Source of the DNA: a virus
Virus record (IMG/VR): IMGVR_UViG_3300048015_000221
Span: 1 to 45,175 of that record
Length of the DNA stretch: 45,175 nt
Direction: 5' to 3' (one strand)
Part shown: piece by piece, positions 40,514 through 42,742 of the stretch
How the letters are laid out: each line of letters begins with the position of its first letter
How positions within the stretch are numbered: the first letter of the stretch is position 1
Position numbers and translations under genes: made by a program
Notes under the pieces: generated by a model
Seen by the model: only the letters and a program-made list of their open reading frames with translations
The model's database searches: none
What the model was told of the DNA's origin: nothing

Positions 40514-41342
40514 GATGATGTGCACGATGCACTTCGGCGATCCGTATGGGCACCTCACGACGACGCAGGGCATGCCGATCAAGAGCGCCGCGGCGATCGC
40601 GAGATTGGTCAGCGAAGACGCAAAGATCGTCAGCCAGCTGCTGGGCGAACTCGAGGCGAACGGCGTGCTCTCGAAGACGCCGGATGGGGTGCTGTTCTCA
40701 CGGCGGATGGTGCGCGATCATGGCACCCGACAGCAGTGGGCGGCTCGCCAAAATCGCTCGAGACAAACGCGTGACAACGGCGTGACAACGGGTCAAGGTC
40801 ACGGCGATGTCACGGCTATGTCACGCGGAAGTCACGCTGAAAGTCACGCGGAAGTCACGCCCTTGTCACACTCTAACGGTAACGGTAACGGTAACGGTAA
40901 TACTGATTCGGCTAACGCCGAATCTCGTGGGAAAGCTAACGCTTCCCCACCGTTAAGCAAAAAAACGGGCGCGAGCGCGCGAGTTCGCCCGGAAGAAACC
41001 TCGGGTCCGTCGTTCGACGCCGAGATCGAAGCCGAAGTCGTCTCGCTGATCGCGCTCATGGCGGGCGAAAACGCGACCGGCACAATCGCGGCAAGCCGGA
41101 TCGCAAACGAGCGCCGCGAGATCGAGCGGCGTATCGTCGCGCTCGGCCGTGACGCGATGCTCTACGGGCTCCGCGAGGCCGTGCGGCACGAGGCGACCGG
41201 CGTCATGTACGCGGTAAAGTGCGCAAAGAGTTTCAAGCCGGGGCCCGCGCTGTTGGCACCGTCCGCGCATCGCAACGGCCACGCGTCGTCGTCGCCCGGA
41301 AACATACCGCGCGAGCATCGCGACGGGGGGTGGGTCAAGTGA
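40416..41342 (+). CDS. Replication initiator-like protein with internal origin
   Basis: ATG 40416 is preceded by AAGGAG. The first 110 residues (HFPFFPEAWKGDEGLKLCSL, RGLWIEMMC, LLGELEANGVLSKTPDGVLF) match the winged-helix N-terminal part of DUF1376-like/phage replication proteins. The middle (residues about 118-165) is a low-complexity linker whose DNA is a phased iteron array. The C-terminal 90 residues are helical and could contact the helicase that follows (GTGA overlap). This is the lambda O-like arrangement, with origin inside the initiator gene. Confidence 0.75.
   Translation: MPKHQHFPFFPEAWKGDEGLKLCSLAARGLWIEMMCTMHFGDPYGHLTTTQGMPIKSAAAIARLVSEDAKIVSQLLGELEANGVLSKTPDGVLFSRRMVRDHGTRQQWAARQNRSRQTRDNGVTTGQGHGDVTAMSRGSHAESHAEVTPLSHSNGNGNGNGNTDSANAESRGKANASPPLSKKTGASARVRPEETSGPSFDAEIEAEVVSLIALMAGENATGTIAASRIANERREIERRIVALGRDAMLYGLREAVRHEATGVMYAVKCAKSFKPGPALLAPSAHRNGHASSSPGNIPREHRDGGWVK
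40771..40950 (+). other. Putative replication origin inside the initiator gene
   Basis: GTGACAACGG occurs twice at 11-base spacing (40771, 40782). GTCACG then starts at 40798, 40809, 40820, 40831, 40843 and 40854, and GTCACA at 40865: gaps 11, 11, 11, 12, 11, 11. Four TAACGG hexamers follow (40874-40897), then a perfect hairpin GATTCGGC-TAAC-GCCGAATC (40905-40924) and a second hairpin with a TAAC loop (40927-40950). Eleven bases is one helical turn and not a multiple of three, so the repeats fall in all frames. Confidence 0.75.
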
Positions 41343-42742
41343 GCGAGGATCTCGACCAGCAGCAGCTCGACATTCCGCCGCATTCTCTGGCCGCGGAGAT
41401 GGCCGTCTTAGGCTCGATCTTGGTCGATCGCGAGATGCTTGACGCGGTCGCCGGCGTCGTGAAACCCGGTGATTTCTACGCGAGCTATCACTCGACGGTG
41501 TATCGCGCGATGCTCAAGCTCGCCTCGCGGCACGAGCCGATCGACGTGATCGCGCTCGCCGAGCACCTTCGCGGCGAAGAGCAGCTCGACAAGATCGGCG
41601 GACTCGCTTACCTGCGTCAACTCACGGACACGGTTCCGACGAGTGCGTCGGCAGAGTACTACGCGCGGCTCGTCTCCGAGAAGTCGAAATTGCGCCGGTT
41701 GATCACGACCGGCCGAAAGATTTGGGAGCTCGGTTTCGTCGGCGAGGACGACGTCGACGCCGCACTCGAGCAGGCGGACTCGCTGCTTCGACGCGTGCTC
41801 GAGTACGGTGCTCCGAAAGCCCGCGGCCAGTCTTCAAGCGAGCTGTTCGCCGAAACGTTTCGCGACATTGCGGCGCGTGCTGAGGGCGAGGTCGAAGTCG
41901 GTCAGTCATCACCGTGGCCGTCGCTCGATGAGTCCGTCGGCCGATTCCACCCGAGCGAGATGGCGATCTGGCCGGCAGCGCCCGGCACGGGCAAGAGCGG
42001 TGCGATGCTGATGCTTGCAGATTACGTCGCTGCGAACTACGGCGCCGTCGCGTTTTTCTCGCTCGAGATGCATCCGCGCACGATGGAAATGCGGCACATC
42101 GCGCTCTACTCGAACGTTTCGACGCGACGCATGCGCCTCGGTCAGACCGCGGGGAACGATTGGGATCGTATCGCGGACGCGGGCAATCAAATCGTCGACC
42201 GCCCGATTTACTGGTACGGCAAGCCGTTCTCAAGACTCGCGGATATCCGTCGCGAGCTGAGCCGGATCTCGAAGCGCGAGCGTCTCGCTGCGTTCATCAT
42301 CGATCACGCGACGTTCGTTGCGGACGCTGAAAGCCGTGGCGGCGATCGGTCAACGCTCAACGAGCGACTCGAGCGCGTGTATCGCAAGCTGCTCGAATTC
42401 GCGTATGAGTTTGGGTGTGTCGCTCACGTCGTCGCGCACTTCAATCGTGCGGCGATGAAAGAGCGCCCGACGCTCGCGGGGATCCGCGACGGCGGAAACC
42501 CCGAAGGCAACGCCCACATCATCATCGCGCCGTATCGCCCGACGGCGGACGCACCGGACGCCGCCGATCGCGCGCGCGCCGAGTTCGTGATCTTGAAGGC
42601 GCGCGAAGGCGAAGCGGGATCGATCCCGATGCAATTCCACGGGTGGCGCAGCCTGTGGCTTGAAACGACGCCCGATGGTCATGTGATCCCGCCGTGGTTC
42701 GACTCGAGCAGCGCTCAGCCGACCCTAATGGTGGCGTCATGA
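41339..42742 (+). CDS. DnaB-like replicative helicase
   Basis: GTG 41339 overlaps the initiator stop; 467 residues. An N-terminal DnaB domain (DIPPHSLAAEMAVLGSIL, FYASYHSTVYRAM) precedes a RecA-type core with Walker A APGTGKS (about residues 214-220), FFSLEMHP (the usual motif before the arginine finger) and FIIDH (Walker B). C-terminal NPEGNAHIIIAPYR resembles the DnaB motif 4 area. It would unwind DNA at the fork, loaded by the initiator. The Walker A lacks the usual R-P-G-M of DnaB but keeps GKS. Confidence 0.87.
   Translation: MSEDLDQQQLDIPPHSLAAEMAVLGSILVDREMLDAVAGVVKPGDFYASYHSTVYRAMLKLASRHEPIDVIALAEHLRGEEQLDKIGGLAYLRQLTDTVPTSASAEYYARLVSEKSKLRRLITTGRKIWELGFVGEDDVDAALEQADSLLRRVLEYGAPKARGQSSSELFAETFRDIAARAEGEVEVGQSSPWPSLDESVGRFHPSEMAIWPAAPGTGKSGAMLMLADYVAANYGAVAFFSLEMHPRTMEMRHIALYSNVSTRRMRLGQTAGNDWDRIADAGNQIVDRPIYWYGKPFSRLADIRRELSRISKRERLAAFIIDHATFVADAESRGGDRSTLNERLERVYRKLLEFAYEFGCVAHVVAHFNRAAMKERPTLAGIRDGGNPEGNAHIIIAPYRPTADAPDAADRARAEFVILKAREGEAGSIPMQFHGWRSLWLETTPDGHVIPPWFDSSSAQPTLMVAS

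Follow-up and report, generated by a model that had tools for sequence, protein, structure and literature searches.

The segment at 40771-40955 of the window, by which we mean the whole 45,175-nucleotide stretch of viral DNA analysed here, is very probably the theta-type replication origin of this phage, contained within the codons for the disordered linker of its own predicted initiator (Table 1). We favour this reading because the segment carries a repeat array beyond what chance would give with the protein sequence held fixed, and because the same arrangement recurs in the initiator genes of other phages. Both the anatomy of the segment and the comparison with these phages strongly support the placement of an origin inside the initiator gene, as proposed by an earlier sequence-only reading. 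Origins of this kind are already known. In the literature that we searched (subscription papers and preprints lay outside the search) we found no account of phage initiators with GTCAC iterons, hexanucleotide tracts or hairpins, and within that scope the class of origins built on GTCAC at 11 bp, the association of this class with a basic helix and the C[TNAC]G hairpin with its covarying stem, all presented below, are apparently undescribed.

Table 1. Features of the proposed origin and of the two genes around it (positions in the window)
Feature	Position	Strand	Basis or remarks
Predicted initiator gene, 308 aa	40416..41342	+	ORF; AAGGAG 6 bp 5' of ATG
Codons of basic helix motif RQNRSRQTR (residues 111-119)	40746..40772	+	In modelled helix 96-122, just 5' of the repeats
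Pair of GTGACAACGG repeats with inverted GTCAC core, spaced by 11 bp	40771..40791	+	Sequence; starts 40771, 40782
Seven GTCAC iterons, proposed initiator binding array	40798..40869	+	Sequence; homologous arrays in other phages
TAACGG x4 + TAATACT, proposed DNA unwinding element	40874..40904	+	Lag-6 self-match 0.83; local G+C minimum
Hairpin 1, GATTCGGC-TAAC-GCCGAATC	40905..40924	+	Perfect 8-bp stem, loop closed by C-G
Hairpin 2, GTGGGAAAGC-TAAC-GCTTCCCCAC	40927..40950	+	10-bp stem including closing C-G, one A.C mismatch
CCGTTA, lone inverted TAACGG unit right after hairpin 2	40950..40955	-	Sequence
DnaB-type replicative helicase	41339..42742	+	Pfam DnaB N (6.6e-32), DnaB_C (1e-34); PHROG 19

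The seven GTCAC copies start at 40798, 40809, 40820, 40831, 40843, 40854 and 40865, with gaps of 11, 11, 11, 12, 11 and 11, and the pair that precedes them is inverted relative to these seven; every coordinate and spacing claimed earlier for the nine repeats matched the sequence. The lag-11 self-match of the array ranks top among all 100-bp windows at lags 5-30 across the entire 45 kb. The array is not due to chance: when synonymous codons were drawn 20,000 times at the frequencies of three adjacent genes, with the protein kept fixed, the longest GTCAC chain had 4 copies against 7 in the real gene, and in 300 simulated 45-kb windows a chain never exceeded 2. The copies occupy all three reading frames (encoding GHG, VTA, MSR, SHA, SHA, VTP and LSH), which bears out the earlier argument that an 11-base period shifts the frame and yields unrelated residues, and the array uses serine codons that are scarce in the neighbouring genes (AGT 2%, TCA 9%). 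Selection on the DNA rather than on the peptide, also claimed in the sequence-only reading, is thus supported, since recoding with a fixed protein fails to give the array and since the cross-phage data point the same way. One could suppose instead that repeat expansion in a low-complexity linker produced the repeats incidentally, and that they were never selected as DNA sites, as the linker is disordered and tandem tracts can slip. This seems to us hardly credible, because the array is not reproduced by synonymous recoding, slippage by 11 bp would shift the frame and alter the protein, the spacers differ between copies, and independent phages have in common the core and the period but not the linker. 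The only near-identical relatives that we found (L002/L318/L408) represent the same phage in another assembly, and the window is identical to L002, so no close-range comparison is available.

Scanning IMG/VR for four GTCAC copies at 11-12 bp returned at least 120 stretches; among the matches listed, 57 have unlike spacers and 38 of these 57 are intragenic, with 37 arrays running in sense and 1 in antisense. Control scans gave 43 stretches with 4 in genes for the permuted core CACTG at 11 bp, and 32 stretches with 1 in a gene for GTCAC at 14 bp. Since about half of the GTCAC stretches among the matches listed either lie outside genes or are simple tandem repeats, the core by itself cannot diagnose an origin; tandem arrays between genes, with nearly identical spacers, are found, for instance, in L010, L012, L031, L044, L049, L079 and L082, along with others. 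The proteins with an array (among the matches listed) have 170-460 residues, with the array near residues 60-190 and mostly at 110-150, and they match replication initiation protein, replisome organizer, DnaD-like helicase loader and O-like families in PHROG, and Phage_rep_org_N, DUF1376 and DnaT in Pfam. Gaps in 48 such genes among the matches listed are overwhelmingly of 11 bp (185, compared to 30 of 12 bp and 9 of 10 bp). A tract of 5- or 6-bp units follows directly 3' (within 70 bp) in 27 of 39 GTCAC-type genes (p<=0.05 vs codon shuffles), 7-bp units occur in other genes, and the encoded runs are as different as SSSSSS, DTDTDT and REEKRREE. Judging from these sequences, sense-strand GTCAC at 11 bp inside phage initiator genes is a widespread class, for which we propose the following definition: at least four GTCAC at 10-13 bp in sense orientation, just past the winged helix, together with a short-unit tract and the basic motif discussed below; the window has all of these. 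In bacterial genomes the exact pattern occurs in 117 stretches, few of them in initiator-like genes (L208, cyanobacterial, and L253, Aeriscardovia). Neither a GTCAC array nor the hairpin is present in epsilon15, SPN1S, Rac ydaU, CP2, TL-2011b and VW-6S, which are the named relatives of one initiator of the GTCAC type; the type of origin therefore appears to switch within families. In L136, a match of the control scan, an initiator-like gene has CAGTG every 11 bp and then a hexamer tract encoding GLGLGLG; additional repeat cores with the same arrangement therefore exist.

Since the origins of nearly all environmental phages are unmapped, the combination of GTCAC at 11 bp, tract and hairpin is of practical value, as it lets both origin and initiator be called from sequence, even in hypothetical proteins such as that of phage Pam1. 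The repeats might also be an operator or a copy-control site, acting by self-repression or by pairing of origins, while replication starts elsewhere. Plasmid iterons often serve in control too, and with nine repeats in two orientations, two of them inverted relative to the other seven, autoregulation could also be served. As a full account of the segment we consider this quite unlikely, however, as the array sits mid-gene, ~380 bp past the start codon, with an origin-like low-G+C tract and hairpins behind it, its position is the same in many phages, and the 45-kb window holds no other array of a similar kind.

Immediately past the array, the four TAACGG hexamers (40874-40897, encoding NGNGNG) create a local dip in G+C content, 47% over 60 bp, which is among the lowest 0.6% of the window. 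The tract and the two hairpins with TAAC loops that follow it are present as described earlier, the second stem with one mismatch. The predicted single-stranded DNA fold of 40868-40965 is much more stable than that of shuffled sequences, for either strand (z -4.7 and -4.9), and scans of the sequence with Rfam and for tRNAs gave no matches.

The hairpins turned out to belong to a shared element. A survey of 246 distinct initiator genes yielded 117 distinct perfect hairpins with 4-base loops, and a TNAC loop is present in 27 of the 117, compared to 34 of 1294 control hairpins from the rest of the viral loci (p 5e-15). These 27 loops (TAAC 17, TGAC 6, TCAC 4) are all closed by C-G, with no stem in common. 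With one mismatch allowed there are 58 TNAC hairpins, carried by 50 of the 246 genes, against 2.9 in codon shuffles. CTVACG sites with 6/6 flanking pairs number 29 in the middle of the gene, 1 in the first part and 0 in the last, while the antisense motif with 6/6 pairs does not occur in the initiator genes at all. Re-dealing the 3' arms leaves an expected 0.31 fully paired sites where 23 are observed, nearly every stem position shows all four Watson-Crick pairs, and G.T accounts for only 1 of 31 non-Watson-Crick pairs, in a set of stems that are partly non-independent as some come from related phages. The stem usually starts 0-20 bp past the end of the short-unit tract, and the hairpin keeps this location, where the repeat tract ends, in phages whose repeat cores differ. 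The window carries an origin hairpin of the C[TNAC]G type as we propose to define it, with a stem of at least six pairs located past the tract. The earlier impression that the TAAC-loop hairpins set this segment apart from lambda holds, in that they are unusual, and can be extended, as they recur in other initiator genes.

The pairing of the stems is thus conserved while their letters change, and the hairpin probably acts as DNA, since strong covariation goes together with almost no G.T pairs. The covariation, the strand bias and the scarcity of G.T make a role at the DNA level directly testable. An alternative is that the hairpins act in the mRNA, for example as an attenuator or a site of processing, and are unrelated to the origin. 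UNAC tetraloops form an established class of RNA loops, and the motif is strand-specific and found on the coding strand, which speaks for this view. RNA stems, however, tolerate G.U, in disagreement with the pairing statistics above, and the element keeps its place at the end of the repeat tract across phages with different cores, so that we regard a role in mRNA as unlikely, though somewhat less so than the operator. The loop motif lies in one reading frame in 51 of 58 cases, and coding therefore contributes to its form. The lack of TTAC loops, where TTAC would encode Tyr, may reflect this bias of frame; we had considered it as a sign of primase preference (CTN) and dropped the idea, as the frame bias offers a coding reason. 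The hairpin is found in only part of the genes and, in the 13 named-phage loci checked, in none except Pam1, and therefore is not essential to origins of this type. A DnaB neighbour, considered as a possible marker of hairpin carriers, is seen in 7 of 25 carriers vs 29 of 176 others, a comparison limited by short flanks.

What kind of protein would work on such a site? The AlphaFold2 model of the initiator (65 homologues) shows a winged-helix domain at residues ~10-122, with high confidence for 10-120, closed by a long helix (96-122), then a disordered linker (~123-200, confidence <50 for 134-191) and a helical C-terminal domain (~200-285). The repeats, the tract and both hairpins all fall within the codons of the disordered linker. 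Searches with the initiator found no Pfam family at E 0.1, nothing significant in the PDB by sequence, and only weak PHROG matches (0.011-0.027), to a DnaD-like helicase loader and a replisome organizer. The top Foldseek matches of the model in the PDB (4pta, 4pt7 and 5kbj, annotated as initiator or Rep-DNA) are RepA_N-type plasmid initiators, with probabilities of 0.97-0.99 but E values of 0.1-0.2, below significance, so the resemblance of the predicted fold to initiators is a lead, not proof. The stop codon of the gene overlaps the dnaB start codon, and the same gene block encodes a RecE-like exonuclease, RecT, a DnaQ-like exonuclease and RusA; in our scan of the replication genes, none was identified as a primase gene.

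The helix that closes the winged-helix domain leads to the question of how the core is read. Unsupervised motif discovery in the 45 residues that precede the array returned [AD]x[AR]ER[QK]x[RK]xR (log-likelihood 364 vs 266-275 for residue-shuffled sets), of which ER[QK]x[RK]xR is common to GTCAC-type initiators of several families, and in models of two families it lies on a helix that extends the winged-helix domain. Its strict form, R[QK]x[RKS]xR, is present in 26 of 39 GTCAC-type genes among the matches listed, compared with 1.4% of background windows and, among 14 named initiators that lack an array, a single one. Basic regions of bZIP proteins read TGAC/GTCA half-sites, and the basic helix motif may be comparable to them. 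Within the winged-helix family of the window, for which 92 distinct N-domains were compared, the array is found in six genes and the motif in 5 of these 6, against 0 of 86 genes without the array (Fisher test, uncorrected for descent). The other members contain other peptides at this place (typically ...GGNP...) and cores such as AGGTTA or ACCTA at 12 bp. In the tree of the 92 domains the GTCAC members are spread over five positions, and their monophyly is rejected only weakly (AU p 0.02; long branches), the tree being poorly resolved and the tree-aware pair test underpowered. Overall, the basic helix motif appears to track the GTCAC core, a tie that suggests how origin specificity changes. 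The expectation that relatives keep the repeats while the linker changes thus applies to the six family members with GTCAC, whose linkers are encoded differently; it does not extend to most of the family, where the repeats have other cores and the peptide after the winged helix is different as well. In another initiator of this family (L424:2001-2786), TGTCC x4 at 10-12 bp takes the place of GTCAC and the basic segment is altered (ERWARNKSGQRS), which makes it a candidate for a specificity shift under way.

We propose that the winged helix and the basic helix that follows it would bind the GTCAC repeats, so that protomers line up along a single face of the DNA, one for each helical turn. The nucleoprotein array would then strain and open the adjacent low-G+C TAACGG tract, and the C-terminal domain, either directly or via a loader, would load the phage DnaB, product of the gene that comes next, onto the strand thus opened. 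On the exposed sense strand, the C[TAAC]G hairpins would fold and provide a strand-specific single-stranded signal, most likely serving the first primer synthesis by the host primase; this last step is the least certain of the model. We infer binding, opening and loading from Tuc2009, TP901-1, pSK41 and lambda. It is also conceivable, although in our opinion rather doubtful, that several initiator families share one grammar, in which a bZIP-like helix reads one GTCA per turn, a tract of 5-7 bp units melts and a C[TNAC]G hairpin is the entry point for primase or helicase. Reader and site would in that case move as a cassette, since they are neighbouring stretches of one gene, and a swap would switch specificity.

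Among the nearest precedents are the replisome organizers of lactococcal P335 phages. In Tuc2009 and TP901-1 the repeats within the rep gene are bound by Rep and serve as the origin (PMC8965321), so that, as proposed for the window, the gene for the initiator (Rep2009 in Tuc2009, ORF13 in TP901-1) carries its own origin with direct repeats. The rep sequence of Tuc2009 contains CAACC x4 at exactly 11 bp and then a tract of 5-bp units, all inside the gene, while the repeat period, in our sequence scan, is 15 bp in TP901-1 and 23-24 bp in lambda O. The repeat core of these organizers differs from that of the window, however, and neither Tuc2009 nor TP901-1 has a C[TNAC]G hairpin. Their domain Phage_rep_org_N (PF09681) is absent in the window protein and present in 7 of 48 other GTCAC-type initiators among the matches listed.

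RepA_N plasmid initiators such as that of pSK41 have a winged-helix N-domain, an origin inside rep, a linker encoded by the origin and a DnaD-like fold, features that the window protein and its gene may share, although the window protein lacks a RepA_N match in Pfam (PF06970). To our knowledge, their Rep boxes are not GTCAC at 11 bp. The pSK41 origin is central in rep and the linker encoded there is dispensable, and the RepA_N N-domain and origin have been exchanged together as one cassette, as in pPR9 (PMC5703833).

The lambda O pattern, invoked in the sequence-only reading, applies to the window in part. Position and order are the same, as a melting region comes after the iterons midway through the initiator gene, which adjoins the next replication gene. 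The iterons differ, as had been noted, since those of lambda are ~19-bp inverted repeats that bind O dimers (PMC7466680, PMC5043065) and lie ~20-24 bp apart, in contrast to the 11-bp direct repeats here. The downstream gene in lambda encodes the loader P and in the window DnaB itself, and the protein family is not the same either, the window protein having no O family match in Pfam or PHROG. Repeats in the iteron plasmids RK2, P1 and F are typically longer and lie outside the rep gene. These plasmids resemble the window in that their repeats are short, direct and helically phased (PMC5043065). Their initiators are of a different protein family.

The initiator of Pseudanabaena phage Pam1 (ON014753, Pam1_56), annotated only as a hypothetical protein, belongs to the same winged-helix family as the window protein, with 49% identity over 93 residues. 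Its repeat core is different (CCTAATA at 12 bp), and the repeats are accompanied by a CAGAAGC tract and the hairpin CAATTAC-TAAC-GTAATTG.

Some initiator genes show further peculiarities at the array or in the linker. Another GTCAC-type initiator (L064:7602-8363) contains a very long inverted repeat within its array, with 15-bp arms (GTCACGCGTGACGTC). In L362, L396, L425 and L474 the linker of the initiator is interrupted by a GIY-YIG-like domain (Pfam T5orf172/MUG113), at the place where relatives bear origin repeats; this domain may be a homing element, or else a nuclease directed at the origin. In L366:2501-3610 the linker is interrupted at that position too, by an HNH endonuclease domain (Pfam PF01844, 7e-15).
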